Part shown: piece after piece, positions 23,243 to 39,324 of the stretch
How the letters are laid out: every line of letters starts with the position of its first letter
Numbering within the stretch: the first letter of the stretch is position 1
From: Nitrospira sp.
GTDB taxonomy: Bacteria; Nitrospirota; Nitrospiria; Nitrospirales; Nitrospiraceae
DNA: 39,977 bases
NCBI GenBank assembly: GCA_016788465.1
Contig: JAEURV010000094.1
Location: 1 to 39,977, forward strand
Direction of reading: 5' to 3'
The notes under the pieces: model-generated
The model's input: only the letters and a program-made list of their open reading frames with translations
Told to the model about the DNA's origin: nothing
Databases searched by the model: none
Made by a program: the position numbers and the translations under genes

Positions 23243-23450
23243 TGGGCACGCAAAAAGGAGTTGTTTTGTACCAGACAACCTTGCATGGTCCATATTCTCT
23301 CAATTATTCCGACCCCTCTCAGCGCTCCGTTGATCGTCCACTCCTGCATGACGATCGAAACAATCACACCAGCCTATGTGATAGTGACAAGTACCTGCGC
23401 AAGGAACGAACCAAGATGGAAACCCATACGAACAGAAGGAGAATCCCTAA

Positions 23451-24812
23451 TCAGGGAGTGAACAAATGGCTGTTCATCATCCAGTGAACGCCGATACTGG
23501 CCGCATAGCCCAACGCAATCGCCCATGTCCATTTCAGGTGGGCAAAGAAGGTATAGACACCTCGTGCTTGTCCCATTAGGGCCACGCCGGCAGCCGACCC
23601 GATCGAGAGAAGCGATCCTCCAACCCCTGCGGTCAACGTGACCAGCAACCACTGGCCAAGGTTCATATCCGGATTCATGCTCAAGACGGCAAACATAATA
23701 GGGATGTTGTCGATCACGGCTGATAAGATTCCAACGAGGATATTGGCGGCCGTTGCGCCTAGGTCTTGGTACAGGAGGCTGGACAGAACCGCCAGATAGC
23801 CCAGCGCCCCAAGGCCGCCGACACAGAGCATGATGCCGTAAAAAAACATCAGCGTGTCCCATTCCACGCGTTTCATGCTGATGAAAATGTTGAACGGTTT
23901 GACGGCTGGTTTCCAGAGCGCAGGCCTTTGTCCCGTCTGCTCGTCATCAGATATGGGAATGTCCGTCCATTCGACCAATTCCTTTCTCCGTATCCAATGC
24001 CCATAGGATTTGAGTATCCCCAGTCCGGTCATCATGCCGAGAAACGGAGGCATCTCCAGAAAATGATGCATCACCACGGTGCCCGCTATGGTGAGAAGAA
24101 ACAACAGTACGATGATGTAACCGCCATGTTTCACTTCCACCGATTCCAGGGTGGCCGTTGGCTTGTCAGGTCCGATAGTCATGGCCATGACTATTGCCGG
24201 CACAAGCCAGTTAACAAGCGAGGGAACAAACAGGGCCATAAACTCCCCGAATTGGATCACGCCTTTTTGCCAGACCATCAGCGTCGTGATATCCCCAAAC
24301 GGGCTAAACGTGCCACCGGCGTTGGCGGCCACGACGACATTGATGCAGCCCAAGACAATGAAGCGCCCGTTACCTGCACCGATTGCGGAAACCACGGCGC
24401 CCATGACCAACGCCGTCGTGAGGTTATCGGCGACCGGCGAAATGAAAAACGCCAGGATGCCGGTGAGCCAAAATATGCTGCGCAGTGATAACCCCAATGA
24501 AATAAGGCGGGTCCGCAACGCCTCAAAGAGATTGCGCTCACTCATCGTATTGATGAAGGTCATGGCGGACAGGAGAAAGAGCATCAACTCGGCATATTCA
24601 AGCAGGGTATGCCGCAGAATTTCTGCAGCGACATGAGATTGGTGTTGCGTACCGTATGCCAGCGCCGTGACGATCCAGATTCCCCCCGCTGCCACCAGAA
24701 CCGGTTTTGATTTACGTAGATGAATGGACTCTTCGACGATCACCAACAGATACGCGGCGACAAACACGGTGAGCGCCACATAGCCTGTCCAATGGGTAAC
24801 AAAACTCGTCAT
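23451..24812 (-). CDS. nhaD: Na+/H+ antiporter NhaD
   Basis: This 453-residue polytopic inner-membrane antiporter is of the NhaD branch of the ion transporter superfamily. Landmarks are 'EYAELMLFLLSAMTFINTMSERNLFEALR', 'FFISPVADNLTTALVMG', 'NVVVAANAGGTFSPFGDITTLMVWQKG', 'LGMMTGLGILKSYGH' and 'ILSAVIDNIPIMFAVL'. It exports Na+ in exchange for protons and so maintains pH and the sodium gradient. GAGAGG stands 6 nt before ATG 24812. It lies 67 bp after an unrecognised 131-residue gene on the same strand and near the SulP-carbonic anhydrase gene, which may depend on sodium. Confidence 0.92.
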   Translation of the reverse strand: MTSFVTHWTGYVALTVFVAAYLLVIVEESIHLRKSKPVLVAAGGIWIVTALAYGTQHQSHVAAEILRHTLLEYAELMLFLLSAMTFINTMSERNLFEALRTRLISLGLSLRSIFWLTGILAFFISPVADNLTTALVMGAVVSAIGAGNGRFIVLGCINVVVAANAGGTFSPFGDITTLMVWQKGVIQFGEFMALFVPSLVNWLVPAIVMAMTIGPDKPTATLESVEVKHGGYIIVLLFLLTIAGTVVMHHFLEMPPFLGMMTGLGILKSYGHWIRRKELVEWTDIPISDDEQTGQRPALWKPAVKPFNIFISMKRVEWDTLMFFYGIMLCVGGLGALGYLAVLSSLLYQDLGATAANILVGILSAVIDNIPIMFAVLSMNPDMNLGQWLLVTLTAGVGGSLLSIGSAAGVALMGQARGVYTFFAHLKWTWAIALGYAASIGVHWMMNSHLFTP

Positions 24813-24879
24813 CTAGTCCCTCTCATTGTATTGAAGCTTGCAACGTGGCTCGTTCTGCCATGTGATACCTTCGTCGGAT

Positions 24880-25275
24880 CTAACGAAGGTACCGAACGTA
24901 GTTGATATGGATTTCGTAGGCCGGCCACCGAGCAAGTACGACATCCTTACCATGCGCCTTCACGATCCGAGCCATCCAGAGCCGCTCAACGACTGTCAGT
25001 TTAGGAATGATCTTCGATAAGGTCAGAGGCGGCTCGACCGTGAGCGGTTGAGAATCGTCAGGCTCACTGCTCAGCTCATGTTCAAGATTTGCATCGTCAA
25101 AATCCTGTAACATGTCTCGCGCACGTTCGTTGCCCCGCATCTTCGCAATTTCCTCAGCGACCTGCTTCTGGAAGTCTTCCGCCTCTCGCGACCTGTTGGA
25201 TGGAGGCAGCCCAAGAAACGGATAGGTTCGTACGCTGGGGCGTGGCACCCCATGGAAATGATTCATTTTCGACAT
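24880..25275 (-). CDS. Hypothetical protein, 131 residues
   Basis: This soluble, charged protein has no signal peptide or membrane helix. Around residues 24-50 lies a helical acidic/basic stretch ('SNRSREAEDFQKQVAEEIAKMRGNERARDML'), then an acidic segment 'DDANLEHELSSEPDDSQP', and a basic C-terminal half 'IIPKLTVVERLWMARIVKAHGKDVVLARWPAYEIHINYVRYLR' (two blocks, residues about 89-131) that looks like a folded helical domain. I do not recognise the family. The ribosome site AGAGGA lies 5 nt before ATG 25275. It is directly upstream of nhaD (67 bp) and probably co-transcribed. Confidence 0.6.
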   Translation of the reverse strand: MSKMNHFHGVPRPSVRTYPFLGLPPSNRSREAEDFQKQVAEEIAKMRGNERARDMLQDFDDANLEHELSSEPDDSQPLTVEPPLTLSKIIPKLTVVERLWMARIVKAHGKDVVLARWPAYEIHINYVRYLR

Positions 25276-25501
25276 GTTGTTCCTCTACTCTCGATGATGG
25301 TCTGTTTCGCTCGATGCAAGCGACTAGTTTGGCTCGCTGCACGAGGATGACCGTTCATGATCGTCCGATGCCTAGGGCTTGCAGGCGACAGGCCTTCGAT
25401 CAAAATGGCTGTGGCACAGACAACGTGCGACTATGCTCAAAGACCGAGCACGCAGGACTCAGTTGAGCGCCTACACAAGCGTAATCGTGCAAAACCGAAG
25501 G

Positions 25502-25795
25502 CTACCCTTGGGGAGGGCGGAAGATGGCGGTTGAAAAGATCGGCAGGTAAATGAGTCGCTGAAACTCCACAGAGATGGAAATGTGATTGAGAATACCGGG
25601 CTTCAAAGTAATCGGAAGAATTGACAAGTCTTCAGAAAGAGATTCTATCGGTGAATCCGAAGTGAGCAGGGCAAGCAACGTGACTGGCACCCCAAGCATT
25701 TGAAAGACCACACAGAGACAGAGGAATGAGATCAGCCAGACTACGGCCAACCGTCGCGTTGAAAAGACAATCCCATCCAACCCTATCAGCTTCAT
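25502..25795 (-). CDS. Small membrane protein, paralogue A of a four-member family
   Basis: This 97-residue protein of unrecognised family has three similar copies further right (29591-29893, 31985-32284, 33706-34005). The N-terminus is basic, a membrane helix covers about residues 16-37 ('LAVVWLISFLCLCVVFQMLGVPVTLLALL'), then come the motif 'SDSPIESLSEDLS', a variable middle and a hydrophobic end 'LPIFSTAIFRPPQG'. ATG 25795 is preferred because it puts the helix at the same distance from the start as in copy C; the frame could extend to a TTG at 25831. No ribosome site is visible. It is the most divergent copy and lies 226 bp upstream of the hypothetical-nhaD pair, both on the minus strand. 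Confidence 0.6.
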   Translation of the reverse strand: MKLIGLDGIVFSTRRLAVVWLISFLCLCVVFQMLGVPVTLLALLTSDSPIESLSEDLSILPITLKPGILNHISISVEFQRLIYLPIFSTAIFRPPQG

Positions 25796-25831
25796 GATTG
25801 AAAGGTACCGGCTCTCATGATCGGCAGTCAA

Positions 25832-26399
25832 GTGACAGCCGCTCAGAGAACGTTTCCGGAAAGCAGCTTGCAGACGGCCTATCTATTAGCAACCAGAATC
25901 TATGCAATAGAACTTTCGACGCTTCAAATACGCTCAGGACATTGAGGCAGTGACAGAACTTCTCTTGCTGCTTATGGTCGATCGCGCGTAACGCCGGCGA
26001 CTGTGCAGTGGCAGACCAATCTCCCCCACCATCAATTTTGAGCGGAAGCTCTCGCCATGCCTTGCTGGATGATACACGACACTCGCCACAGGTGTTTCAC
26101 CACTGAGTGTCCCGATGATCGCCGGGTGAGACGCCCATGTCCAGTTGGACATTGTAGCGGCCTTTTTGATGCATCAGTCAATCTTCTCCATCAAGGCGAC
26201 AACATATGGATTGGACTGTGGGAGTAGGAACAATCTGGCAATATTAGTATGAACGATAGCAACACACTGAGAGAAGGTCTGATTTATTCGGAGTTTTGAG
26301 TCGAAACCAGTCAAGTCTCCAGCTTTTTCAGCGTTGGTTGGCTGACAAACTAAATTATTCTGATCTTCCTCAGTTGATTCGATGGGATCTGGGTCACGA
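25832..26399. other. 568-bp stretch without a convincing gene
   Basis: Only a weak minus-strand frame is seen (25934-26152, 72 residues beginning MSNWTWASHP, with AAGG about 8 nt upstream); it has no recognisable family and may be chance. A perfect 10-bp palindrome TGATGCATCA lies at 26167-26176, just upstream of that frame. The rest is AT-richer than the neighbouring genes and holds no RNA gene I can identify. Confidence 0.4.
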
Positions 26400-28676
26400 T
26401 CAAGCCCTATGTCTTTCCCCCATTTCCTCTACCCCCTCCGCCACCAGAAACTCGATCCCTCCTGTGACGCCGTCGTACATGGAACCAACAATTGCAATAC
26501 GTCGTTCTTGAACGAGGCTATCGAGCATCTGGCTCCGAGCTCGCAGTTCCTGCCCCACCCACACGACATGATGTCTGGCCACAAAGTCGCTACTCCATAC
26601 TTCTACTGGCAAGAGCAACTCGCCGACCTCAGAGCACATAATCTTCTTCACCGATTGTTGGATCTCCCTCACAATCGGATCAAAAGGCTCGCCCATTTTC
26701 GCCATACCATCGGTTCGAGCCGATGCGATACATTCCATCGCTGCGGCAATCGCACCACATCGCGTATGTCCCATGATGAGAATCAGTTTGGCTCCACTCC
26801 TCACACACCCGTATTCCACGCTCGCAATCACCTCTGGACTCATAACATGACCAGCGATCCGAACACTAAGGATATCCCCCATCCCCATGTCGAATACCTG
26901 CTCCGGGGATTGCACAGCATCGCTACAGCTGACGACCAGGGCCAAGGGATGTCGCTTCTCTTCTGAGACACGGCCTTGGCGATTGCTATTTGTCGGCAGT
27001 CGTCGGCCAGTACGCATTCGTTCGTGGCCGTCCCTCAGAATCTGCAAGACCCTCTGAGGCGTGAGGGATGCCTGGAGTTCACGTGTTGAATAATCCACAT
27101 TTTGGATCTGATCTTTAAACTTATGCTCGTTCAGAAATCCGATCAGGCTTACATCAATGCCGCGAACAGGGCCTGCGGTCTCCTTGAAATCCCGAATCAG
27201 GCCAAGCACGTCGGGATCAATATAGTCCGTGTTGCGCGCATCAAGAAGCACACGGCCATTGCGAGGGACTTCGTTGAGCGCTGCGGTAAGGGCGGCACGA
27301 TTCAGAAAACTCTCCTGATTCGCGAGCTCAATATGGACGACCTCACCACCAAGATGCTTGGAGACGAAGCGGCGCACCGGGCGACGCATATTGCTATTGA
27401 GAATAAACCCAATGGACACAGCAAGTCCGATCACGATGCCGATGAGGAGGTCGGTCAGGACAATAGCCGCCACCGTTGCTACAAACGGAATGAATTGATA
27501 GCGCCCCTCCCTCCACATTTGCTTCATTAGGGCTGGACTGGCCAATTTGATACCGGTCATCAACAGGATGGCCGCCAAGCACGATAAAGGAATAGCATTC
27601 AACCAGGTCGGGATGAGGGGAACAGTGACAAGCAACAAGGTGCCGTGAATGATCGTGGCCAACTTGGTTCTACCACCGGCAGTGACGTTGACAGAGCTAC
27701 GGATGATCACAGAGGTGACCGGGAGCCCACCGACTAATCCACAAGCCACGTTTCCGATACCTTGTGCCAAGAGCTCTTGACTTGGCGGGGACGTCCGCTG
27801 TTGCGGATCGAGCCGATCGGTTGCGTTGAGATTGAGCAAGGTTTCCAGCGAGGCCACAAGAGCCAGTGTGATCCCTGCGGTATAGACCGCCGGATTCATC
27901 CATTGCGAGAAGTCTGGTCGTGGAAGCAGTTCAAACCACTCAGCCAGGTCGCCCGCCACCGGCACCTGCACCAGATGGCTTGGCTTGATCACCCACGGGT
28001 CGCCGAGATGTTCGAACCACAATCCTCCTCCAATACCGAACAGCACCACAGCGACAGGAGCGGGAAAGAGAGACATCTTCAACGGCTTCCAATTGTCCCA
28101 GAGGATGAGCAGTGCCACGGACAACAGCCCCACAACGGCGGCTCCCAGTTGATAGTCTCCGAACATGCGGAAGAGTTCGGAAAACGTCGTTTCGAGATCC
28201 GGCTGAGAAAAGGACATGTCCCCCTCCGGATCGGAGTCATGCCCAACAAGATGGGGAATCTGTTTGAAGGTGATGATCACACCGATCGCCGCCAACAACC
28301 CTTTGATGACGCTGGACGGAAAGAATTCTGAGATGAACCCTCCTTTGGCGACACCGAGACCGATTTGGATCACCCCGGCAAGCATCAGAGCCATCAGAAA
28401 AGTTGAAAAGGAGCCGAGAGAGAGAATTTGTGCGGCCACAACCGCCGACAATCCGGCCGCCGGACCACTCACACTGGTATGTGATCCGCTGAGGAGTCCC
28501 ACCACAGACCCGCCGACGATCCCGGCCAGCAATCCAGACATTAACGGAGCACCGGATGCGAGTGCGATCCCCAGGCAGAGAGGTAGCGCCACGAAAAACA
28601 CCACGAGACCGGCCTTACAATCACCGAAAAGAGTGGATGAGGAGACAGCAGTCATCCCAAACATGAGATCCTTCAT
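26400..28676 (-). CDS. SulP anion (bicarbonate) transporter fused to a beta-carbonic anhydrase-like domain
   Basis: This 758-residue fusion has a SulP membrane domain at about residues 10-430 ('FGDCKAGLVVFFVALPLCLGIALASGAP', 'SGPAAGLSAVVAA', 'NVACGLVGGLPVTSVIIRSSVNVTAGGRTK'), then a STAS-like domain at about 450-545 ('VHIELANQESFLNRAAL', 'VLLDARNTDYIDPDVL'), then a beta-carbonic anhydrase domain at about 575-750. The zinc ligands are present: C584 in CSD, H637 and C640 in GHTRCGA. The normal CSDSR is CSDAV here, so the Arg that pairs with the catalytic Asp is lost. The usual role proposed for SulP-CA fusions is bicarbonate uptake with interconversion at the membrane. The domain here may be inactive, altered or regulatory. 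Other possible starts are ATG 28664 and 28655. Confidence 0.9.
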   Translation of the reverse strand: MKDLMFGMTAVSSSTLFGDCKAGLVVFFVALPLCLGIALASGAPLMSGLLAGIVGGSVVGLLSGSHTSVSGPAAGLSAVVAAQILSLGSFSTFLMALMLAGVIQIGLGVAKGGFISEFFPSSVIKGLLAAIGVIITFKQIPHLVGHDSDPEGDMSFSQPDLETTFSELFRMFGDYQLGAAVVGLLSVALLILWDNWKPLKMSLFPAPVAVVLFGIGGGLWFEHLGDPWVIKPSHLVQVPVAGDLAEWFELLPRPDFSQWMNPAVYTAGITLALVASLETLLNLNATDRLDPQQRTSPPSQELLAQGIGNVACGLVGGLPVTSVIIRSSVNVTAGGRTKLATIIHGTLLLVTVPLIPTWLNAIPLSCLAAILLMTGIKLASPALMKQMWREGRYQFIPFVATVAAIVLTDLLIGIVIGLAVSIGFILNSNMRRPVRRFVSKHLGGEVVHIELANQESFLNRAALTAALNEVPRNGRVLLDARNTDYIDPDVLGLIRDFKETAGPVRGIDVSLIGFLNEHKFKDQIQNVDYSTRELQASLTPQRVLQILRDGHERMRTGRRLPTNSNRQGRVSEEKRHPLALVVSCSDAVQSPEQVFDMGMGDILSVRIAGHVMSPEVIASVEYGCVRSGAKLILIMGHTRCGAIAAAMECIASARTDGMAKMGEPFDPIVREIQQSVKKIMCSEVGELLLPVEVWSSDFVARHHVVWVGQELRARSQMLDSLVQERRIAIVGSMYDGVTGGIEFLVAEGVEEMGERHRA

Positions 28677-28792: not shown

Positions 28793-29401
28793 TTAGAATC
28801 GCTCCAAACGCTTTTCGTAAAGCCCTAATTTAACCGAACGCGTCACGGGTGATTCCAGTGGGGTGATGGCAGTCGGGCATTTTTCTCCTCCCACGAACCG
28901 GTCATGGCCATCGTCCTCAAGCTCTTGCTCCTTGATCACCTGGCGCGTGATCCATCCATCAAGAAATCGAACCTGGAGCTGAAACTCAGAGGTTCCCAGA
29001 GAGGTACATTCTCGGGGACGAATCTCAAAGGTAGTGGGAAGGACCGTGTGCCATTTTCCTCGGGAACTATCGAAGACGATAGTGGTGACGCGATAAGAAC
29101 CTGCGGGAAGTTTCACGGCAAATGCCCCATCCAAAGGCAGGCGAACGATCTGAAACCGCTTTCCATGCGTGACCTCCTCAATCCACCATTTCATATCGTT
29201 CGACCACTTGAGGTTCGACAATTGTGTTTTCCCATCGCGATCGAGGCGATGTGTTCCAAGCAGCACCCCACGACTGTCATCGATCATCTCAACGTCCAAG
29301 TCAGAGATGGGAACAAGGCGCGTGGTACAGCCATATGCTACACCAGCCATCAACAACAGGACGGTCATCAGATAGGCAGTAGGAGACAATGCACGATCCA
29401 T
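28793..29401 (-). CDS. Lipoprotein, paralogue A of a three-member family
   Basis: This 202-residue lipoprotein has a leader with lipobox 'GVAYGC' (Cys about residue 25) and then a mature domain shared with 30426-31037 and 31243-31839. Shared blocks, in order: 'GVLLGTHRLDRDGKTQ', 'W..DMKWWIEEVTHGKR', 'GAFAVKLPAGSYRVTTIVF', 'SSRGKWHTVLPTTFEIRP' and 'ECTSLGTSEFQLQ'. The 'F-VKLP-GSYRV' and 'C-x-SLGT' elements suggest a beta-sandwich with a conserved cysteine. I do not recognise a named family. AAGGAG stands 6 nt before ATG 29401. It follows the small membrane protein B by 189 bp, and the two are probably one unit. Confidence 0.72.
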   Translation of the reverse strand: MDRALSPTAYLMTVLLLMAGVAYGCTTRLVPISDLDVEMIDDSRGVLLGTHRLDRDGKTQLSNLKWSNDMKWWIEEVTHGKRFQIVRLPLDGAFAVKLPAGSYRVTTIVFDSSRGKWHTVLPTTFEIRPRECTSLGTSEFQLQVRFLDGWITRQVIKEQELEDDGHDRFVGGEKCPTAITPLESPVTRSVKLGLYEKRLERF

Positions 29402-29590
29402 TGTGCGCTCCTTTTTGTCACGACCATTTAGTGCATGCTGAATAACTCAAAGCATGAAGATTCCAATTGATAACCGGACAATGCCTGAAGACGATGATCA
29501 GGTCTCGGTACCCATCACGTTCAGTATGGTGTAAGTGCCTGCACAACGATGGCGCTTACGCAATACCTGCGATGGTGTCTGAAAATCTGG

Positions 29591-29893
29591 TTACAGGACG
29601 ACAGGCGCGGGAGGATGGAACACAGACGTGAGCAAGACAGGAAGATGAAGTCTTGGACGAATGTCGGAGAAGAGGCCGAGCAACACAGGCATCTTAATGT
29701 CAACAGCCGATGACAGAGCTGAAAGGTCTTCGGACAGGGATTCAGCCGGCGCATCTGAGGCCAGCAGACCGATGAGGGTCACGGGCATTCCAAGTATCTG
29801 CGTGACGACACAGACACAGAGCAGTATCACCAAGCAGGCGACGCCGATTGCACGAGATGGAGAACGAACTACCCTTGGGGCCCTGTGACTCAT
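29591..29893 (-). CDS. Small membrane protein, paralogue B
   Basis: This 100-residue protein has a basic N-terminus (SHRAPRVVRSPSRA) and a membrane helix at about 16-37 ('IGVACLVILLCVCVVTQILG'). The family motif 'MPVTLIGLLASDAPAESLSEDLSALS', a variable middle and the hydrophobic end 'LPVLLTSVFHPPAPVVL' follow. Copies C and D share the CVCVVTQxLG, SED.S and LPVL.TSVFHPP blocks. There is no ribosome site before ATG 29893, but the sequence TATGATA lies about 14 nt upstream, as it does before copy C. It stands 189 bp upstream of lipoprotein A on the same strand. The membrane location is inferred from hydrophobicity; the function is unknown. Confidence 0.68.
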   Translation of the reverse strand: MSHRAPRVVRSPSRAIGVACLVILLCVCVVTQILGMPVTLIGLLASDAPAESLSEDLSALSSAVDIKMPVLLGLFSDIRPRLHLPVLLTSVFHPPAPVVL

Positions 29894-30425
29894 AGGTCTT
29901 TTATATCATATCGCGGGCTCTCTGGCATATGCGATGGTCCCCTGAGAAAGGAAGATCGCTTCGCATTCCACAATCACATCGCGGGAATCAAGGTCCACCA
30001 GCAACCCACAGTGCATGCGGGTCAGCTGAGAATGGATACCCGGGAATCTCGTACCGTTGTTTGGCATATGAACCTTTTACGAGCTGGGTTTCTGGATCCA
30101 CGGAGTAACCGGTTCTTCGCTCGCCGTTCATCCGTCGGTCCTTGTTGAGGGCGAAATGATCGGGCCCCACGCGGTATCGCGCTCGATGAGGGAAGGGATC
30201 ACCTCATCTTTCAGAATTGAGAGCACCTGGCGGATAAATTGGACCGTCATGAATTCATCCATTTCGAGGATATCAGCCGCTTTCAGCAACAAGCTCGCAG
30301 CATGCTCTCCGTTGCAGTAACGGTCTCCATAGTTCGGAATGACCGGCTTATTGGCCGCGATGTCGTGCTCGAACTCGCGCAGTGCTTCGAGACCTCAAGC
30401 CGACTCGTTGTCGAACAGTGAACAG
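29894..30425. other. 532-bp stretch with remnant coding sequence
   Basis: No intact gene is visible. A minus-strand frame of 88 codons (30128-30394) is described separately. A second minus-strand frame overlaps its end (29988-30170, 'MNGERRTGYSVDPETQ...', 60 residues) and has no family I know. The sequence just upstream of copy B (29895-29915) carries the TATGATA element. Confidence 0.4.
30128..30394 (-). pseudogene. Coding remnant, possibly from a transposase C-terminus
   Basis: The frame opens just after an in-frame TGA (30395-30397) with no start codon and reads GLEALREFEHDIAANK PVIPNYGDRYCNGE, then 'HAASLLLKAADILEMDEFMT...' to a TGA at 30128. The block 'N..VIPNYGDRY.NGE' resembles the C-terminal region of a transposase family I recall ('IPNYGERYR.GE', ISKra4-like), but the characteristic continuation ('..ESAVN..SKRM') is missing. 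It is therefore either a scrambled insertion-sequence remnant or the end of an unrelated decayed gene. It sits between the lipoprotein B stop and the small membrane protein B. Confidence 0.35.
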
Positions 30426-31037
30426 TCAGTAGCGATCAGCACCTCGTGGGCGGAGGTGGAGTTTGACGGAGCGTTTTATGCCCAAGTCCGGCGGATGAAT
30501 CAACGACGGACAACCCTTTAACTGAAGAGTGTCTTCCATCACATTCGGGGTAAGCACCGGCGTATGAGAAACGGTCTGTGTCATCAAACCGGCCAGGTGC
30601 TCCGTTTGAACCTGAAGTTCCCAGGTCCCTAGCGAGATACACTCCTTGGAATGAACGCGAAATGTTGTCGGTAGGTCGGCATGCCATACACCCCGACTGC
30701 TCCGAAAACTGATGTCCCTGACTCGATAGGAACCAGGGCGAAGTTTCACCGCAAATGGTTCATCAAAAAGAAGACGGGTAAGCAGTATGCGCGATCCCCG
30801 ACTTTCTTCTTCGATCCACCAGTTCATGTATATCGGCCACTGAAGAGGAGCTGAGGTATGATTTCCGTTCTGAGCCAGATCAATTCTTCCGAATAACAGC
30901 CCATGATTGTCGTCGGCCACAAGGTCCCTCAAGGGCGGCGCTACAGGAACGACGGTGGTGCTGCAACCATGGACAAAGCCGGCAGCCAATAAAATGACAC
31001 TGAGATGAAACGTACCTCGAAGATTCGGATAGTTCAT
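30426..31037 (-). CDS. Lipoprotein, paralogue B
   Basis: This 203-residue lipoprotein has leader 'LSVILLAAGFVHGC' and Cys at about residue 25. It shares the ordered blocks of the family: 'NHGLLFGRIDLAQNG', 'QWPIYMNWWIEEESRGSR', 'PFAVKLRPGSYRVRDISF', 'SSRGVWHADLPTTFRV' and 'KECISLGTWELQVQ', then a variable tail with 'LGIKRSVKLHLRPRG', similar to the tail of paralogue A ('PVTRSVKLGLYEKRL'). ATG 31037 is chosen because GAGAGG stands 5 nt upstream; the frame reaches back to 31097 without support. It lies 205 bp downstream of paralogue C, the only pair of lipoprotein genes not separated by a small membrane gene. A remnant follows on its 3' side. Confidence 0.72.
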   Translation of the reverse strand: MNYPNLRGTFHLSVILLAAGFVHGCSTTVVPVAPPLRDLVADDNHGLLFGRIDLAQNGNHTSAPLQWPIYMNWWIEEESRGSRILLTRLLFDEPFAVKLRPGSYRVRDISFRSSRGVWHADLPTTFRVHSKECISLGTWELQVQTEHLAGLMTQTVSHTPVLTPNVMEDTLQLKGCPSLIHPPDLGIKRSVKLHLRPRGADRY

Positions 31038-31078
31038 ATGATCCTCTCTTTCAGATATCCCGACACACCGGTTCAGGA

Positions 31079-31264
31079 CTATTTTGAAGACAGGCAACGT
31101 TCTTGATCACGAGCGAGATACTCTTCCCAGACGTGAAGACGTCCCACTGCCCAACATGAGGTCCGAGGGGTGGACTCATGCTTGTCCACCTCCTGGGCAA
31201 ACAGGGTCGCACCACAGCGCGCCCACGTGAAGCTTTGCGCTGTCAGAATTCGTACCCCCCATGT
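31079..31264 (-). other. Open frame between lipoprotein genes C and B, no clear start
   Basis: The frame runs from just after TAG (31265-31267) to TAG 31079-31081 and reads '...ILTAQSFTWARCGATLF', 'AQEVDKHESTPRTSCWAVG', 'RLHVWEEYLARDQERCLSSK'. The composition looks protein-like, but no start with a proper ribosome site exists: a GTG inside has GGAG directly against it. A second frame starting ATG 31173 (43 codons, MSPPLGPHVG) has AGGAGG 9 nt upstream and is the alternative. It could be a small unannotated gene or a remnant. Confidence 0.3.
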
Positions 31265-31839
31265 CTATTTTGAAAGCCCAGCTTGCTCCTCACAGGTGAT
31301 CCAGCCGACGCAGAACAGTCTTGTGTAGCCAGGACCTGCTGCAATTCAACATGCGTTTCATCGAGGTCTTTGAAGACGTGCCCCGTGATCCAGTCTGCGA
31401 ATGATTCGGTCTCCCGTTGTAGGTACCACGTTCCGAGTGAGGTGCAACCTCCCGCCTGGACCTGAAAGGCAGTGGGCAACACAGTGTGCCATGTGCCCCA
31501 GACGCCCTTGAAGCTGATATCTTTGACCCGATAGGAGCCTACCGGCAGCTTCACCACGAAGGGACCGGACGTCGGAAGATCAACGATCACGATGCGCTTG
31601 CCCCTCATCTCCTCCTCAAGAGACCATTTCATATCCAATGGCTGCGTGCGCCCCGACGACGTGTTTGGCCCGTGCCAGGTCAGCTGAACATGTCCGACCA
31701 CCAAACCATGATTCTTATCTGGCGAAATGGAGTCCGACGTCGAGCGAGGCGTCAACACGGTGGTACAGCCGGCGGCGAACGCCATAAACCAAACGACGCT
31801 CGCCACGACTAAACGTTGACGAAGAATTGAGGCATTCAT
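31243..31839 (-). CDS. Lipoprotein, paralogue C
   Basis: This 198-residue lipoprotein has leader 'VVASVVWFMAFAAGC' and Cys at about residue 25. Family blocks: 'NHGLVVGHVQLTWHG', 'QPLDMKWSLEEEMRGKRIVIVDLP', 'PFVVKLPVGSYRVKDISF', 'GTWHTVLPTAFQV', 'GGCTSLGTWYLQRETE' and 'ITGHVF'. ATG 31839 is supported by AGGAGGGAAGT directly upstream; the frame continues to 31944 without a start of its own. It follows the small membrane protein C by 145 bp and precedes lipoprotein B by 205 bp. It shares 'ISF' and 'WH..LPT.F' with both other copies. No enzyme motif is visible; an outer-membrane or inner-leaflet anchored binding role is only a guess. Confidence 0.72.
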   Translation of the reverse strand: MNASILRQRLVVASVVWFMAFAAGCTTVLTPRSTSDSISPDKNHGLVVGHVQLTWHGPNTSSGRTQPLDMKWSLEEEMRGKRIVIVDLPTSGPFVVKLPVGSYRVKDISFKGVWGTWHTVLPTAFQVQAGGCTSLGTWYLQRETESFADWITGHVFKDLDETHVELQQVLATQDCSASAGSPVRSKLGFQNRHGGYEF

Positions 31840-31984
31840 ACTTCCCTCCTTTGTCGAGACAGAGATCGAGACAAGTCCAAGAGGCTCTGCGCCCGGCACA
31901 GCAACACAATTCGATACGGCGGAACAGTCTGAGGGGACCCTCACACTGTCGGACGATCAGGACTCTGGAACTGTTACGACTGGG

Positions 31985-32284
31985 CTATGTAGAGGGAGGG
32001 TGAAACACCGCAGTGAGTAACACCGGAAGATGACGAGCAGCGCAACACTCAACAAAGAAATTGAAAAAACGAGGCCGCCACGGCTCGGGCGACGGGGAGA
32101 AAGCAGACGCGTCCTCCGATGCTGGCTCTGACTTTGTGAGGACATCCGAATTCAATAAGTCCATAAGCGTGGCCGGGACTCCAAGCATCTGCGTCACCAC
32201 GCAGATGCACAGCAGCACCACCAAGCACCCCACACCTATTCGGTGATAGAAGGAGTGTAATGCCATTCGGTTCATCAGGCTCAT
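31985..32284 (-). CDS. Small membrane protein, paralogue C
   Basis: This 99-residue protein begins 'MSLMNRMALHSFYHR', has a membrane helix at about 17-37 ('IGVGCLVVLLCICVVTQMLG'), then 'VPATLMDLLNSDVLTKSEPASEDASAFSP', an aromatic middle 'FFNFFVECCAARH' and the end 'LPVLLTAVFHPPST'. It is closest to copy D: 'M.LMNRMA' and 'SDxLxKSEP.SED.S' are shared. No ribosome site precedes ATG 32284. A TATGATA element lies 15-21 nt upstream, at the right distance for a leaderless or very short leader transcript. It stands 145 bp upstream of lipoprotein C. Confidence 0.7.
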   Translation of the reverse strand: MSLMNRMALHSFYHRIGVGCLVVLLCICVVTQMLGVPATLMDLLNSDVLTKSEPASEDASAFSPSPEPWRPRFFNFFVECCAARHLPVLLTAVFHPPST

Positions 32285-32286
32285 GA

Positions 32287-32303
32287 AATCAATTTATCAT
32301 ATG
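32287..32303 (-). promoter_or_regulatory. Possible -10 element close to the start of small membrane gene C
   Basis: On the minus strand TATGATA lies 12-18 nt before ATG 32284, in a stretch (about 19 nt) that matches the region before ATG 34005 of copy D at roughly 13 positions. Copy B also has TATGATA at about the same place. The element resembles a -10 hexamer; no clear -35 is visible at 16-18 nt spacing. Confidence 0.35.
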
Positions 32304-32462
32304 AGAGACATGCTGTCATGCGCGCAGGGAATGGATAGAGCCTCTCGTACTCCCGGATCCATGCTGACGAGAAGATCAAAACTGTTTGCCGGCCATCGCT
32401 CTTGTCCGGGAGAAAGCCGGAGTACATCTCTCTACTCGCTGTCGAAAAAAGATTACAAGACC

Positions 32463-33422
32463 TTAGAACTCGCGAATCAGCCGAAACCCGATTTCAGGGA
32501 GCGTGAGATCCTTGGTAATCCTTGTTCCAATACCTCCTTGAATCATCCAGCGCTTACTAACTTCATAATGAAGTTGCGGCATAACCAGTAAAGACGCATG
32601 GCCATTGACGACTTGCCCCACATTAGTTTCAATACCCGCGACAAGTCGGTTCGTCACATCCACAAACAACGTCACATTGCTGAGCCACTCAGTTCGACGG
32701 TCTGTGACACGGCCTCCCAATTCAGTCCGTGGCCCAAACATCCCAAAGACGCTCCAGGTTTCATTGAAGCGGAAGCCGGCCAGATAGAGAAACGTGGTCG
32801 TCCAGATTTTCGGCTGCTGGTCATATTGGACGATGATCTGGGATCCATGAATAAACCGGTCCTTCAACCCCGTACCGAAGAACACCTGACCTGCGCCCTT
32901 GTAGGCCTCCACGCGGACGTTTTCCATCGGTAATTCAAATTCAATCCCAATGCCATCCCAGACGTCATACTCAATCTCCGGGGCCCACTCGAGGCCCTGT
33001 GTGTCCGGGCTACGCCGGACAAAGCCCAAGGGATCAGGTGCATCGTCGACCGTTCTGGCTTTCCGCCGCAGAGGAATGCGCCCAAGAGCGTTGATCTCTC
33101 CTTCACCCCGTCTCCCACCCAAGGGACGCACCAGGTCAAAAACCATCGGTTCGGGAATCCGTGGCCCTCGTGTTTCTCCCGATACCCGCTCAATTGTCCC
33201 GCCGTTAGAAGATGCCCCCGTCATACTCTCTATGCGCGGTACAGGAACGATCGATTCCTGCATATATGAAAACAGCGTGTCACGCACGGTAGACACCATC
33301 GCCTCACTGGAATACCTCGGCGGTGCCGGTGGGCCGATATCAAGGGCTTCCCCAGGGGAAGGGACCAACACGGCAAGAGCTAACACAAGATGACGAACTG
33401 AAACGCAGAATTTAGAATGCAT
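32463..33422 (-). CDS. Probable outer-membrane beta-barrel protein
   Basis: From ATG 33422 this is a 319-residue protein with a signal peptide ('VRHLVLALAVLVPSPGEALD'), then an extended Pro- and Gly-rich part ('LDIGPPAPPRYSS', 'SNGGTIERVSGETRGPRIPEP'), then from about residue 150 alternating amphipathic strands ending in 'LTLPEIGFRLIREF'. A final Phe and strands such as 'GIGIEFELPMENVRVEAY', 'TTTFLYLAGFRFNETWSVFG' and 'RLVAGIETNVG' are typical of outer-membrane barrels. I do not recognise a named family. Upstream in-frame starts at 33452 and 33566 exist; none has a clear ribosome site. It lies about 284 bp downstream of the small membrane protein D gene. Confidence 0.65.
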   Translation of the reverse strand: MHSKFCVSVRHLVLALAVLVPSPGEALDIGPPAPPRYSSEAMVSTVRDTLFSYMQESIVPVPRIESMTGASSNGGTIERVSGETRGPRIPEPMVFDLVRPLGGRRGEGEINALGRIPLRRKARTVDDAPDPLGFVRRSPDTQGLEWAPEIEYDVWDGIGIEFELPMENVRVEAYKGAGQVFFGTGLKDRFIHGSQIIVQYDQQPKIWTTTFLYLAGFRFNETWSVFGMFGPRTELGGRVTDRRTEWLSNVTLFVDVTNRLVAGIETNVGQVVNGHASLLVMPQLHYEVSKRWMIQGGIGTRITKDLTLPEIGFRLIREF

Positions 33423-33705
33423 GCATCGCGAGACGAAAACACACAAACGCATAAGCGAGTTTCGAGACCTTGATTGGATATCGATGCGTCTAACTCCTCG
33501 TATGAGCGTTCTTGGCTTGCACCGATTCTTCCGCCATATCGGTGATCGCCCTAAGCTCAGGAGCAATGTCTATTGCCATGAGCACGTTCTTGATATCGTG
33601 ACATCCACTGTTCACAACAATTCCCAAAGGTAGTCGTGATCACCCACGCGAGCGTGGGCCACCAGACAACTCTCGGATCGATACTATAGAGCCGACGAGA
33701 TCCCG

Positions 33706-34005
33706 CTAGATGGAAGGGGGACGGAACACCGACGTGGCCAATACTGGGAGTTGCAGCACAAGACATGACTCAGTGAAGAGGTAAAGGAGGCTAGGCTTCT
33801 CCGGTTCAAGTGAGGGTGAGAGAGAAGAAAAGTCTTCGGAAACAGGTTCGGATTTCGCGAGCATATCCGAATTCATCAGACCAATCAGCGTGACTGGTGC
33901 GCCGAGCATTTGCGTCACCACGCAGACACAGAGCAACACGACCAGGCTCGCCATACCCATGGCGTGACAAGTAGAATCGGACGCCATTCTATTCATCAGA
34001 TTCAT
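33706..34005 (-). CDS. Small membrane protein, paralogue D
   Basis: This 99-residue protein begins 'MNLMNRMASDSTCHA', has the membrane helix 'MGMASLVVLLCVCVVTQMLG' at about 16-36, then 'APVTLIGLMNSDMLAKSEPVSEDFSSLSP', a middle with 'LLYLFTESCLVLQ' and the end 'LPVLATSVFRPPSI'. It is the copy most similar to C. The start ATG 34005 has no ribosome site. The region before it (about 19 nt) is related to that before copy C. It lies upstream of the outer-membrane protein gene and downstream of the DUF1269 gene (34082-34636), all on the minus strand. The function is unknown. Confidence 0.7.
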   Translation of the reverse strand: MNLMNRMASDSTCHAMGMASLVVLLCVCVVTQMLGAPVTLIGLMNSDMLAKSEPVSEDFSSLSPSLEPEKPSLLYLFTESCLVLQLPVLATSVFRPPSI

Positions 34006-34040
34006 GTAACCAATCTACCAAATACGTAACAGATTGTCCT

Positions 34041-34056
34041 GTTCATAACCATGAAC
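34041..34056. promoter_or_regulatory. Perfect inverted repeat (GTTCAT-N4-ATGAAC) between DUF1269 gene and small membrane gene D
   Basis: GTTCAT (34041-34046) and ATGAAC (34051-34056) form a 6-bp stem with a 4-nt loop. It lies about 36-51 bp upstream of ATG 34005 and could be an operator or a weak terminator for the DUF1269 transcript. No T-tract follows. Confidence 0.3.
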
Positions 34057-34081
34057 CCACAGACAGGTTTCCCGATGCATG

Positions 34082-34636
34082 CTACTTCCCACCGATCTGT
34101 TGTTGATGTTCGTGCGCCAGCGCAGCGCGCAGCTTCTCTTCCTGCTCTGTGGTCAGCGATGTCGTGAGGATGGTGCCTTCGTATCGTGAGAAGCTGGCTA
34201 GTAGCTTGTCGTGATCAGCACTCCGGATCAGCAAGAAAATGGCCGAGGTGCCTCGCGTGAGGGTGCCTCCCAAATCCTTGATGAACTTATCGGGAATCCC
34301 ATAGTCGTTCAAGAGTCCGTACTCGCTTGCCGTCGTAGTGAACGCTCCGGCACCAGCTCCCCCAGCGAGACTGCCGAAAAGGCCCGCCAGGGGATTGAGG
34401 AACAGCAGGCCCATGAGTCCACCCCACAACATGCCCAGTGCCACCCCTTGTGTCGTCGCACCGCCAAACACATCGACACACTGTTTGAGATGGACCTTCC
34501 CATCCATATCACGAACGACGATCACTGCATCTTCCAAGTCGAGCACATAGTCTTTTTCCATCGCACGCAGTTCGTTCAAGACTCGATCAGCTGTGCTGGA
34601 ATCCTTAAATGCGATACACACCAGTTCACTCATCAT
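34082..34636 (-). CDS. DUF1269 membrane-associated protein
   Basis: This 184-residue protein starts with a ferredoxin-like segment ('LVCIAFKDSSTADRVLNELRAME'), then 'YVLDLEDAVIVVRDMDGKVHLKQ', then a Gly-rich hydrophobic hairpin ('GVALGMLWGGLMGLLFLNPLAGLFGSLAGGAGAGAF') and 'DYGIPDKFIKDLGGTLTRGTSAIFLLIRSA'. This pattern is DUF1269, a family of small membrane-associated proteins of unknown function often seen near stress and transport genes. GGAG lies 4 nt before ATG 34636 and 7 nt before ATG 34633, so the second may be the real start. It is the most upstream gene of the minus-strand accessory run. Confidence 0.85.
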   Translation of the reverse strand: MMSELVCIAFKDSSTADRVLNELRAMEKDYVLDLEDAVIVVRDMDGKVHLKQCVDVFGGATTQGVALGMLWGGLMGLLFLNPLAGLFGSLAGGAGAGAFTTTASEYGLLNDYGIPDKFIKDLGGTLTRGTSAIFLLIRSADHDKLLASFSRYEGTILTTSLTTEQEEKLRAALAHEHQQQIGGK

Positions 34637-34737
34637 TCGTCTCCTTCATGATACGGATATAGATAATATTCCGTGATAAATTCACTCCCCGATAACCTAG
34701 ACTTGTGCGCTCCCAGAAAGACGGCGTTTTATTCCCC

Positions 34738-34970
34738 GCCACTGTTTCCATTGGAACCATAACCAGGTCTCTAGGCCTACCACGAGAGAGACCGTGACTG
34801 CCGCCGCCAGCATCAGTACCCTGGCAGTTCACCGTGTGGAACTTTCGGCTCAGGCTCGGACTATCAGCAACAAGACTTGCACCTCCCTCATGTCAGCTAT
34901 CCCTCACCAAAACCAAGAATTATTGAACAGACCGATATGAAATACGGTGTATTACGACGAGCAATCTGGC
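34738..34970 (-). pseudogene. Decayed copy of the cation ATPase 3' end
   Basis: This region aligns by eye, with small gaps, to 39441-39690, the 3' part of the P-type ATPase gene at the right edge: shared blocks include ACCAGGTCT.., CTACCACGAGA.AGAC.GT.AC.GCC.CCGCCAG.ATCAG, CGTGTGGAAC, ATTGCTGAACAG/ATTATTGAACAG and GAAATACGGTGT/GAATACGGTGT. Roughly two thirds to three quarters of positions agree. Substitutions and small indels break the reading frame, so it is not translated. The orientation is the same as that of the ATPase gene. It lies downstream of the RND pump gene, as if the ATPase-adaptor-pump block had once been duplicated and mostly lost. Confidence 0.7.
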
Positions 34971-35005
34971 ATCTGAGATCGTACGCGAAAGAGCATTGCC
35001 CATAT

Positions 35006-38000
35006 TCATCGCAGCGCCTTTTCCGACTGATCGCCCGTCTCGAACCATTGATAGAGCGCAGGCAACACGATCAGCGTGAGCAGCGTCGAACTCACCAGAC
35101 CGCCGATCACGACAACCGCCAACGGCCGTTGAACCTCCGAGCCGATGCCTTCCGCCAGCGCCAGGGGCGCTAACCCCAGCAGTGTGGTCAGCGTCGTCAT
35201 TATGACCGGACGCAAGCGCTGGAGACACCCTTTCAGGATCGCGTCTTCTGTAGTGAATCCCTCTTGCCGCATGCCGTTGATGGTGGACACAAGGACGATG
35301 CCATTCTCGACCGCTACACCGAACAACGCGATAAATCCCACCGAAGCCGGAACACTCAGATACTGTCCCGTCACCCACAAGCCGAACACACCGCCGATGA
35401 GAGCGAATGGGAGATTGGCCACGATCAACGACGCGGAGCGTAGGGAGTTAAAGGCAAGGGCCAGCAACAGTCCGATCAGCCCGATCGTGATCGGCACGAC
35501 GATCCTGAGGTGCGCCATCGCGCGCTCCATCTGTTCGAACGCGCCGCCCCAGGTGATGGTGTAGCCGGACGGCAAATGAACACGTTCCGCGAGCTTACGC
35601 TGCCCTTCTTCAACGATGCTGCCGGGATCACGGCCCACTACGTTGAAGCCGATAAAGATCCGTCGGCGCACCTGTTCGCGGCTGATCCGCGCCGGGCCCT
35701 CGCGCATCTCCACCGTCGCCAGCTCACTGAGCGGAATCGGCGCGCCGACCGCCGAGTTAACAAGAATCTCGCCGATCTGGCGCACCGTGCTCCGGTGTTC
35801 CTCGGGGAATCGTAGGATGAGCTCGAATCGGCGCTCATTTTCATAGACCGTCGTCGCAGGTTTTCCGCCGATCGCGGTTTCAATGATGGCGCGAATATCC
35901 GCCACGTTGATGCCGTAGCGGGCGATTTTGTGGCGATCGATATCCACGGTGAGGTACAGTTGTCCCGCGATCTGCTCCACACGCACATCCTTTACACCTT
36001 CGATCGTTCTCATCACGACAGCGATCTGGTCCGCCCGTTCCTTCAAACCATCCAAATCATCTCCGAACAACTTGATGGCGAACTCCGTTCTGACGCCTGA
36101 GATCAACTCGTCCACTCGCTGCTGGATGGGCTGGCTCATCATGAACGACATGCCGGGGATCTCGGCAAGCCGTCGGCGGATCTTCTCGACCAGCTCGGCT
36201 TTGGTCCGGGCGGTCGTCCAGGTGTCCCGAGGGTGCAGTAGGACAACCGGATCGCTTTCATTGGCCTCTTGCGGTTCATTGCCAATTTCCGACCGACCGA
36301 TCTTACCGACCGCGAGGCGGACTTCCGGAAATTCCCGCAGGGCCTGCAAGGCGCGTTTCTCCAATTCGATGGATTCAGGAAGCGACACCCGTGGCAACCG
36401 GATGATCAGCGGCGTCAGCGCCCCTTCATCCAGGACCGGCACGAACTGTTTACCCAGATACGGCACCAGCATCAGCGTCAGACCCAGCAGAGACAGGGCG
36501 CTGATCAGCACCAGTCGACGATGGGCGAGGGCCCAGCGGAGCAGCGGTTCATACCCTGCCTTCGCCCATCGGACGATCGGCATCTCCCGTTCGTTCCCGC
36601 GGCGGAGTCCCAGCGCACAGAGGACCGGTGATACGGTCAGACACAACACCAGCGATACGACCAACGCGATGATGACTGTATAGCCCAATGGGGCGAACAT
36701 CTTGCCTTCGATGCCTTCCAACGTCACGAGCGGCAAAAACACCACGATAATGATGAGCATCGCAAACGCGGTCGGTCGCGCCACTTCCTTCGACGCCTGT
36801 AGTACCACGTCCCAACGGGAGTCGGGCGAGCCGTCGGATGTGGAAAGGCGGCGATACACGTTCTCCACCACCACAATTGACCCGTCGACGACCATCCCGA
36901 TGGCGATCGCCAGTCCGCCCAGCGACATGAGGTTGGCCGAAAGGTCAAGATCCTTCATGATCCGAAACGTCAACAGCGGTGTGAGAATTAAGGTCACCGT
37001 CACGATCAGTGCGCTTCGAACGTTGCCGATCGTGGCGAAGAGGATGAGACCCACTAAGATCGTCCCCCCTAGTAAAGCCTGACGGACCGTGTCGAGGGCC
37101 GCCGTGACCAGTTCAGATCGGTCGTAGAACGGCATGAGTTTCAGCCCGCCGGGGAGGATGCCGGCCCGATGGACTTGCTCAATCTTGGCCTTGACGGCTT
37201 CGACGACTTGTCGCGCATTGGAGCCACGGAGCATGAGAACAATGCCGGCCACCACTTCCTGATCGCCGTTAAGCACGGCGGCGCCGTGGCGGATGGCATG
37301 GCCGATACGTACCTCGCCAAGATTGCGCACATACACGGGCGTCCCGCCCGCCTCCTTCACCACGATATCCTCGATATCGGCGATGCTTCGTACCAGCCCC
37401 AACCCGCGTACAATCGCCCGTTCACCGTGTCGATCAACCACATTGCCACCGGCGTTGGCATTGTTCTGCGCAACCGCATTGAAGACCTGGGCCAACGTCA
37501 AGTTGTACTTGCGCAACTGGGCCGGATCAATGATGACCTGATACTGCTTCACGAATCCGCCCAACGCATTCACATCGATGACGCCGGGAACCGTCCTGAG
37601 AAGCGGCCGAAGCACCCAGTCCTGTAAGACTCGCTGCTCAGTCAGGGCGGCCTCGAGCGCCGCGGAGCTTGTCGCGTCCACCCTCGGCCCATCCAGATAG
37701 TACTGATAGATCTCACCGAGGCCGGTCGTCACCGGCGCCATGACCGGCTCCACCCCAGGAGGCAAGGTCGCTTTCGCTTCAAGCAGTCGCTCCAGGACGA
37801 GCTGGCGGGCACGTAAGAGGTCCACATGATCCTTAAACACGACGGTGATTTGGGAGAGGGCGAATTTTGACAATGAACGGATTTCAGTGAGGTCGGGCAA
37901 GCCCGTCATCTGCAGTTCAAGGGGAATGGTGATGAGCCGCTCAACCTCGATCGGAGACAGGCCCGGCCCGTCGGCCAAGATCTGCACCTGGATGTTGGTG

Positions 38001-38125
38001 ACATCCGGAAATGCGTCGATCGGTAACTCACGGAAGGCCATAACACCGGCCGCGGCCAGGAGGCCGGTCAGGATCAAAATAAGCGGCCATCGTCGGATCG
38101 ACAAGGCGATCAGCGCGTCGATCAT
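35006..38125 (-). CDS. Heavy-metal efflux RND pump (CzcA/CusA family)
   Basis: This 1039-residue inner-membrane transporter has two repeats of six helices with large periplasmic domains. The N-terminal 'MIDALIALSIRRWPLILILTGLLAAAGVMAFRELPIDAFPDV', 'VQILADGPGLSPIEVERLIT', the TM4 motif 'GLAIAIGMVVDGSIVVVEN', 'GKQFVPVLDEGAL' and 'GVAVENGIVLVSTING' are features of the HME-RND group. The TM4 motif is of the mixed 'GMVVDGSIVVVEN' type and lacks the Met cluster used by CusA, so divalent metals (Zn, Co, Ni, Cd) are more plausible than Cu/Ag, but the metal is not settled by sequence. The start overlaps the adaptor stop by 4 nt. No outer-membrane (CzcC) gene is visible in the window. Confidence 0.93.
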   Translation of the reverse strand: MIDALIALSIRRWPLILILTGLLAAAGVMAFRELPIDAFPDVTNIQVQILADGPGLSPIEVERLITIPLELQMTGLPDLTEIRSLSKFALSQITVVFKDHVDLLRARQLVLERLLEAKATLPPGVEPVMAPVTTGLGEIYQYYLDGPRVDATSSAALEAALTEQRVLQDWVLRPLLRTVPGVIDVNALGGFVKQYQVIIDPAQLRKYNLTLAQVFNAVAQNNANAGGNVVDRHGERAIVRGLGLVRSIADIEDIVVKEAGGTPVYVRNLGEVRIGHAIRHGAAVLNGDQEVVAGIVLMLRGSNARQVVEAVKAKIEQVHRAGILPGGLKLMPFYDRSELVTAALDTVRQALLGGTILVGLILFATIGNVRSALIVTVTLILTPLLTFRIMKDLDLSANLMSLGGLAIAIGMVVDGSIVVVENVYRRLSTSDGSPDSRWDVVLQASKEVARPTAFAMLIIIVVFLPLVTLEGIEGKMFAPLGYTVIIALVVSLVLCLTVSPVLCALGLRRGNEREMPIVRWAKAGYEPLLRWALAHRRLVLISALSLLGLTLMLVPYLGKQFVPVLDEGALTPLIIRLPRVSLPESIELEKRALQALREFPEVRLAVGKIGRSEIGNEPQEANESDPVVLLHPRDTWTTARTKAELVEKIRRRLAEIPGMSFMMSQPIQQRVDELISGVRTEFAIKLFGDDLDGLKERADQIAVVMRTIEGVKDVRVEQIAGQLYLTVDIDRHKIARYGINVADIRAIIETAIGGKPATTVYENERRFELILRFPEEHRSTVRQIGEILVNSAVGAPIPLSELATVEMREGPARISREQVRRRIFIGFNVVGRDPGSIVEEGQRKLAERVHLPSGYTITWGGAFEQMERAMAHLRIVVPITIGLIGLLLALAFNSLRSASLIVANLPFALIGGVFGLWVTGQYLSVPASVGFIALFGVAVENGIVLVSTINGMRQEGFTTEDAILKGCLQRLRPVIMTTLTTLLGLAPLALAEGIGSEVQRPLAVVVIGGLVSSTLLTLIVLPALYQWFETGDQSEKALR

Positions 38126-39324
38126 GGCGCAGGCTCAATCAGCGTTTTCTCGAATTCAGACCTGAGCACGAATGTGCCTGCGGTGACAATCCGCTCCCCG
38201 CCGCGCAGGCCGTTCAGCACTGCGACGACCTGGTCGGTTTCCTGGCCGAGGACCACGGGACGCTTCTCGAACGTCCCGCCGTCCAATTGGACAAACACAT
38301 ACGAAGACTCGCCGCTCCGTTGCACGGCTGAGACCGGCGCCATCGCGACCTCCGGTTCGGGCTCCGCATACACGCGCACCGTCGCGAACATTTCCGGTTT
38401 CAGCAGCTTCTTCGGATTGGGGACCGTGATACGCAAGCGCATGGTACGCGTTGCAGAGTCCAGCACATCACCGACATAGGTGATCGTGCCGGAAAAGACC
38501 TTGCCGGGATAGGCCGTCATCCGCACCTCGACGGACTGCTCGTGATGGATGAACTGCACGTCCTTCTCCGGGACATTGCCGACGACCCAGACATCTGAGA
38601 GATCGGCGACCGCGAAGATGGTCTGCCCCATCTCCACCACCTCACCACGCGTGAGATTGCGCATGATGATCCGGCCGGCAATCGGCGCACGGATCGGCAC
38701 ATCTGAGCGGACAGTTCGCTCACGATCTAAACGCCGAATCTCCTCTCGCGGCAGCCCGAGCAACTCCAACCGATGCGTGGTTTCCCGCAGATCGGCGTGA
38801 GCCACCCGCATCGCGGCTTCACGACGTTTCAATTCGGCTAGGCTCACCACTTGATGTTCGTACAACTCACGGGCCCGCTCATAGGCTAAGGCGGCTTCGT
38901 GCGATTGAGCTGCGGCCTTCAAATAGGATGATTGAGACAGGCCGATGTCCGTACTATGAACCAAGGCAAGCGCAGTGCCTCGCTCAACATCATGGCCGAA
39001 GTCGACATAGACCTCTTCGACCCGTCCTCGAATCAATGTCGTGACCTCCGCCAACTTATTCTCATTCGGCTGGACGACGGCGGGAAAATCTCGATGGAGC
39101 CGAAACTCCCCACGAACGATCGGAACTACCTCGATCCCGGCACTTGCCAGGAGTTCAGGCTTGAGCGTGACCATATTCGGAGACGACGGGGGCACCGTAC
39201 GACTCGATGCCTCAATCGGTTCATCGCGTGCCTGGAATCCTCTGAGGAGACTGAACGAGGCCAGTACAAGCCCACTCACCCCCACCACAAGCGCCCAAGA
39301 CGCAATCCGCCTCCTGTTCACCAT
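38122..39324 (-). CDS. RND efflux periplasmic adaptor (CzcB/CusB family)
   Basis: This membrane-fusion protein has about 400 residues. An N-terminal anchor helix ('RIASWALVVGVSGLVLASFSLL') is followed by a beta-barrel/lipoyl region ('VTTLIRGRVEEVYVDFGHDVERGTALALVHST'), an alpha-hairpin with 'SHEAALAYERARELYEHQVVSLAELKRREAAM', then 'RSDVPIRAPIAGRIIMRNLTRGEVVEMGQTIFAVADLSDVWVVGNVPEKD' in the second lipoyl half and a C-terminal barrel 'GGERIVTAGTFVLRSEFEKTLIE'. It links the RND pump to an outer-membrane channel. ATG 39324 is preferred; AGGA stands 9 nt upstream. The frame continues to a GTG at 39354. It starts 59 bp after the ATPase stop, so the three genes are probably one operon. Confidence 0.92.
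   Translation of the reverse strand: MVNRRRIASWALVVGVSGLVLASFSLLRGFQARDEPIEASSRTVPPSSPNMVTLKPELLASAGIEVVPIVRGEFRLHRDFPAVVQPNENKLAEVTTLIRGRVEEVYVDFGHDVERGTALALVHSTDIGLSQSSYLKAAAQSHEAALAYERARELYEHQVVSLAELKRREAAMRVAHADLRETTHRLELLGLPREEIRRLDRERTVRSDVPIRAPIAGRIIMRNLTRGEVVEMGQTIFAVADLSDVWVVGNVPEKDVQFIHHEQSVEVRMTAYPGKVFSGTITYVGDVLDSATRTMRLRITVPNPKKLLKPEMFATVRVYAEPEPEVAMAPVSAVQRSGESSYVFVQLDGGTFEKRPVVLGQETDQVVAVLNGLRGGERIVTAGTFVLRSEFEKTLIEPAP

Follow-up and report, generated by a model that had tools for sequence, protein, structure and literature searches.

Three paralogous Nitrospira lipoproteins accompanied by a small membrane protein in a cassette of transport genes

Three lipoprotein genes in a 39,977-nucleotide stretch of Nitrospira DNA (hereafter the window, meaning the whole stretch that we analysed) encode what appear, from their sequences, to be old paralogues on a Nitrospira-specific branch of an envelope lipoprotein family that is found across the order Nitrospirales. 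The most useful new fact about them is their setting, namely a constant small-protein partner (a single-TM protein with an F(H/R)PP motif) and a neighbourhood of transport genes (Table 1). The lipoproteins themselves are real, uncharacterised and lineage-specific, with an ordinary fold and ordinary selection. We consider them most likely to be non-enzymatic envelope accessories of ion and bicarbonate transport, a tentative reading to which we give somewhat less than an even chance. The source genome is 3.7 Mb in size, and the window's close relatives are Nitrospira MAGs.

Table 1 Features of the lipoprotein cassette in the window
Feature	Coordinates	Strand	Remarks
NhaD-type Na+/H+ antiporter	23451..24812	minus	NF038006 4.7e-167, above cut-off
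Single-TM F(H/R)PP protein, 97 aa	25502..25795	minus	downstream of the SulP-carbonic anhydrase gene
SulP anion transporter-beta-carbonic anhydrase fusion, 758 aa, putative bicarbonate transporter	26400..28676	minus	PF00916 3e-58, PF00484 5.6e-24; sub-cut-off matches to the sulP and carbonic anhydrase models of NCBIfam
Lipoprotein 1, 202 aa	28793..29401	minus	117 bp directly upstream of the SulP-carbonic anhydrase gene
Single-TM F(H/R)PP protein, 100 aa	29591..29893	minus	about 190 bp upstream of lipoprotein 1
Lipoprotein 2, 203 aa	30426..31037	minus	long branch, in no well supported subclade
Lipoprotein 3, 198 aa	31243..31839	minus	clear orthologues (84-85%) in UBA5698 (L074) and RBC100 (L073)
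Single-TM F(H/R)PP protein, 99 aa	31985..32284	minus	145 bp upstream of lipoprotein 3
Predicted secreted, probably outer-membrane beta-barrel protein (OMP)	32463..33452	minus	weak sub-threshold NCBIfam match (HAEPLYID), short
Single-TM F(H/R)PP protein, 99 aa	33706..34005	minus	upstream of the OMP-like gene
DUF1269 membrane protein	34082..34636	minus	PF06897 5.6e-29
CusA/CzcA heavy-metal RND efflux permease	35006..38125	minus	TIGR00914, above cut-off
CzcB/CusB-type periplasmic adaptor	38122..39324	minus	TIGR01730 above cut-off; PF16576

Sequence and predicted structure of the lipoproteins

The original prediction of three paralogous lipoproteins of ~200 residues was borne out. The three proteins are pairwise 38–40% identical across 183–194 residues (BLASTP), with single-comparison E-values of 6e-48, 2e-36 and 4e-39 that lie far beyond chance, and in each of them a hydrophobic signal sequence ends in a lipobox-like Gly-Cys at residue 24–25 that is directly followed by T or S. 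The ordered blocks said to be shared by the copies were recovered in a three-way alignment with 45 invariant columns, including F.VKL..GSYRV, G.WH..LPT.F and (E/G)C.SLGT. A fourth member was not detected in the source genome at E<=1. The proteins had been described as belonging to no recognised family, and this held in profile searches: the three window lipoproteins matched nothing in Pfam, NCBIfam or PADLOC. PF13620 (CarboxypepD_reg) left the window proteins unmatched, and a distant relative (L067) reached 14.1 bits against a gathering score of 32.3. Kindlin chains were the only matches in a profile search of PDB sequences (E 0.036 or worse) and were taken as chance.

The guess of a beta-sandwich was strengthened by two AF2 models, which were run with different first rows on nine-sequence alignments and which agree on the same all-beta core, with no family identified. 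The core has 8–9 strands over mature residues about 20–119 and was modelled at pLDDT mostly 70–90, with block values mostly 68–89 apart from one loop; the tail is poorly predicted with low confidence, and the pTM is 0.65–0.66. Fold-database searches of the models with Foldseek and VIA-align returned a scatter of transthyretin/CnaB-like sandwiches as best structural matches. The best VIA-align Z-scores were 6.6 and 6.9, with many tied rows of unrelated sandwiches, and no match pinned a well-characterised family. Transthyretin/prealbumin-like and CnaB-like domains (BT_0210 N-terminal domain 4ecn, DUF3823 proteins, CnaB2 8bdw, BcpA 3kpt) are likewise all-beta sandwiches of similar size, but the lipoproteins match them at Z 4.5–6.9 and rmsd 2.9–5.6, which is the tool's "common arrangement" range, and without a sequence profile match. 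The lipoprotein block F.VKLP.GSYRV is similar to the "LPPGTY.V" strand that typifies such domains. The sole low-E Foldseek match, 4ecn (8.6e-4), has a TM of 0.35 and an rmsd of 7.6.

The columns kept across all three groups of the family (see below) are mainly G49, L98, G101, Y103, F94, F125 and G136. Most invariants are G, Y, F, L or W, the kind of residue that maintains a fold, and no polar catalytic set is conserved; the pattern fits a signature of the fold and not one of an active site. The Cys of (E/G)C.SLGT, described as conserved, is so in the window copies but not in the order-wide group, where 12/12 sampled members have I/L/V (C132) and W117 is replaced by S/V. A functional Cys was rejected on these grounds; since the order-wide relatives carry I/L/V, the residue probably packs the core and does not act as a functional thiol. 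H118 is Q/R/M elsewhere, and C175 is gone from most of the TSPP branch.

Distribution, phylogeny and selection

A profile built from the three window lipoproteins detected relatives in 35 of 79 Nitrospira genomes and gave weak matches elsewhere in the phylum; a wider profile recovered relatives in 75/395 phylum genomes, mainly of the order Nitrospirales. Tree and sequences distinguish three groups: the close family of the window copies (30 rows), a group ending in "TSPP", and an order-wide group. The first two were each found in the genus Nitrospira only, and the third is a distant, mostly single-copy branch that occurs throughout the order Nitrospirales. A contig pattern scan, which detects close relatives only, returned Nitrospira loci only. 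The C-terminal "TSPP" is almost invariant in its group (L057, L058, L059, L072, L084, L086, L087, L089, L090, L091, L092), and a Pro-Pro C-terminal end is common to these lipoproteins and the F(H/R)PP proteins.

Within the close family, lipoprotein 3 groups with copies from G076 and G010 (100/100) and then G009, and lipoprotein 1 with five copies from other genomes (100/99), whereas lipoprotein 2 has no firm place in the tree. The copies sit in different clades, which include orthologues from other Nitrospira species; they therefore predate the species split, and a fresh tandem duplication was ruled out by the tree. In all five clade-mates of lipoprotein 1 the lipobox Cys is replaced by Ser/Thr (Ser/Thr/Tyr in some relatives), and broken (decayed) copies are present in G031, G060 and G075. 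That one clade has lost its lipobox and that copies have decayed argues for a dispensable role.

The lipoproteins are under purifying selection at the whole-gene level. Their dN/dS in nine orthologous pairs (Nei-Gojobori, whole gene) is 0.10–0.30, with which a few positively selected sites would still be compatible, and is comparable to that of the SulP-carbonic anhydrase fusion (0.14–0.34). Raised amino-acid over silent change was not seen in any of the nine pairs at the whole-gene level. These results bear on the suggestion that the tandem copies are diversifying surface or ligand-binding lipoproteins that vary so as to bind different external ligands. Lipidation, the beta-sandwich, the presence of 1–3 copies per cassette and the inclusion of adhesins among transthyretin/CnaB-like folds are all in keeping with it, but the low dN/dS, the separate and ancient clades, the lost lipobox or broken copies elsewhere and a neighbourhood of transporters rather than surface structures all speak against it, and we regard it as distinctly unlikely. 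Diversification, as originally proposed, thus finds no support, and the transport-gene setting favours a transport-linked role; the proteins might still bind a ligand.

The cassette and the small F(H/R)PP protein

Four paralogous F(H/R)PP proteins are interleaved with the lipoproteins in the window, a feature that did not form part of the original prediction. Every genome with a close-family lipoprotein (23/23) has an F(H/R)PP gene no more than 1.5 kb from it, mostly 150–220 bp off, and the SulP-carbonic anhydrase fusion is equally near in 16/23; related genomes share this adjacency by descent, and the counts are therefore not independent. No conserved DNA element was found in the 150–220 bp gaps between F(H/R)PP gene and lipoprotein, and a promoter/terminator scan did no better than shuffles. 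The F(H/R)PP proteins share a TM segment rich in Cys and, close to the C-terminus, an invariant F.PP; there are up to 11–12 copies per genome (G064, G065), and the source genome has further loci on contigs C340 and C209 (L106, L107).

Leader proteins such as CzcI, which are small and belong to heavy-metal RND operons, may be a counterpart of the F(H/R)PP proteins. Both are small secreted or membrane proteins near CzcA-type genes; the F(H/R)PP proteins gave no match in NCBIfam and Pfam scans, also occur away from RND genes, and were seen only in the family Nitrospiraceae.

The fusion in the window is of a kind known elsewhere. Such a fusion has been described in N. marina (PMC8115632), and SulP-can linkage and fusions are more widespread (PMC6458275, citing Felce and Saier 2004). 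Uptake of HCO3- by Nitrospira has been proposed to proceed via a BicA-like SulP beside or coupled to Na+/H+ antiporters (PMC8115632, PMC7784846). Near the SulP-carbonic anhydrase genes considered here, Na+/H+ antiporters recur as NhaD (window, L073, L074) or PF00999 Na_H_Exchanger (L078). The papers cited here make no mention of an associated lipoprotein or F(H/R)PP protein. The fusion is present in about 40 Nitrospira genomes, most of which lack an adjacent lipoprotein, and transport therefore does not need the lipoprotein.

The cassette occupies a variable slot, with ketopantoate reductase-like and Sir2-like genes at one end and a MATE exporter at the other (flanking identities as read from sequence); in the window it is also bordered by the CusA/CzcA-CzcB system and NhaD. 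G063, G053 and G008 retain the pair of small protein and lipoprotein in this slot without the fusion, while the lipoprotein of G072 is near metal efflux only and that of G032 is near neither fusion nor metal efflux. It is possible that the lipoprotein and small-protein genes are hitchhikers, that is, passengers of a variable slot with no transport role. This would be consistent with the variation in small-gene content of the slot between species, with the decayed copies and with fusions that occur without the two genes. Nonetheless, the purifying selection on the lipoproteins and the persistence of the pair at other places (G072, G032, G060) argue against passenger status, which we judge to be rather unlikely.

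Identity to the corresponding locus of UBA5698 (L074) is 94.3% over 31159–39977, a region that holds the metal efflux genes, DUF1269, the OMP, two small proteins and lipoprotein 3, compared with 80% over the SulP-carbonic anhydrase gene and 87% over 20721–25957. Lipoproteins 1 and 2 are absent from that locus; lipoprotein 3 is present in the same gene order. The identity step lies just past lipoprotein 3, which therefore moves with the metal-efflux block, and the block with lipoprotein 3 at its edge appears to have been exchanged as a unit. Positions 34101–39977 are 97% identical to L083 of G072. The CusA/CzcA-CzcB block as such is 94–97% identical across otherwise more divergent Nitrospira genomes, which suggests recent exchange. 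An OMP of the type at 32463..33452 recurs beside close-family lipoproteins (L073, L074, L081, L083).

Settings of the TSPP and order-wide relatives

At four TSPP loci (L072, L086, L087, L092) the lipoprotein has a SulP gene on one side and, on the other, an RND operon that comes with a PII-like protein; the remaining TSPP loci have in common only two-component regulators. The PII-like protein, of the PG0541 family (above cut-off in L086), is located between the TSPP lipoprotein and the RND operon. The order-wide group adjoins ApbE (PF02424), a facing porin, an FMN_bind protein and others; TonB, ExbD, ExbB and ABC genes follow at a greater distance. A gene order of porin-lipoprotein(15)-FMN_bind-membrane protein, lipoprotein and ApbE is conserved in nine loci. 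This order-wide cluster of ApbE, FMN-binding, porin, small lipoprotein-like and membrane proteins (L061, L062, L063, L065, L066, L067, L068, L071, L088) could be an extracytosolic flavin/iron system.

Such settings raise the possibility of a metal- or redox-linked family, whose order-wide ancestor took part in extracytosolic flavin-based electron transfer or iron uptake and whose Nitrospira copies retained metal handling beside CusA/CzcA. Besides the conserved ApbE/FMN_bind gene order and the TonB/ExbD/ExbB and Fe-type ABC genes of several loci, this reading can draw on a close-family copy (L055) that adjoins ABC permease and ATPase genes from the same clusters, and on CusA/CzcA near close-family lipoproteins in the window and L083. 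It is weakened by the absence of a conserved metal-ligand set, given the substitutions of Cys, H118 and C175 noted above, and by the ancestral cluster's function being itself inferred, and we think it improbable.

Possible role in transport

Under the transport-accessory reading that we prefer, the lipoprotein would be lipid-anchored, and the T/S at +2 would place it in the outer membrane by the E. coli +2 rule. It might then act as a periplasmic, non-enzymatic adaptor or scaffold together with the small inner-membrane F(H/R)PP protein, whose conserved C-terminal tail would face the periplasm and which may be its working partner. The pair would assist or stabilise the transport encoded in the cassette (SulP-carbonic anhydrase bicarbonate uptake, NhaD Na+/H+ exchange and CusA/CzcA metal export), and the paralogues could serve separate transport modules, with lipoprotein 3 assigned to the metal-efflux block and lipoprotein 1 to the SulP-carbonic anhydrase gene. 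In favour of this reading we count the recurrent F(H/R)PP and SulP-carbonic anhydrase neighbours, the Na+/H+ antiporters near the fusion, the four TSPP loci with RND and SulP genes, the exchange of the block that carries lipoprotein 3, the shared core of the two models and the fold-type invariants. Adjacency is no proof of function, however, and the genomes that keep the pair without the fusion, the many fusions with no lipoprotein beside them and the signs of dispensability speak against it. A more specific proposal, which we hold to be doubtful, is that lipoprotein and F(H/R)PP protein make up a trans-envelope module of two genes, restricted to Nitrospira and its relatives, whose role would be to couple or tune cation export and the uptake of bicarbonate by SulP-carbonic anhydrase. 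Inorganic carbon uptake by nitrifying Nitrospira has been little studied, and an envelope pair tied to a bicarbonate transporter, if true, would offer a new handle on it.
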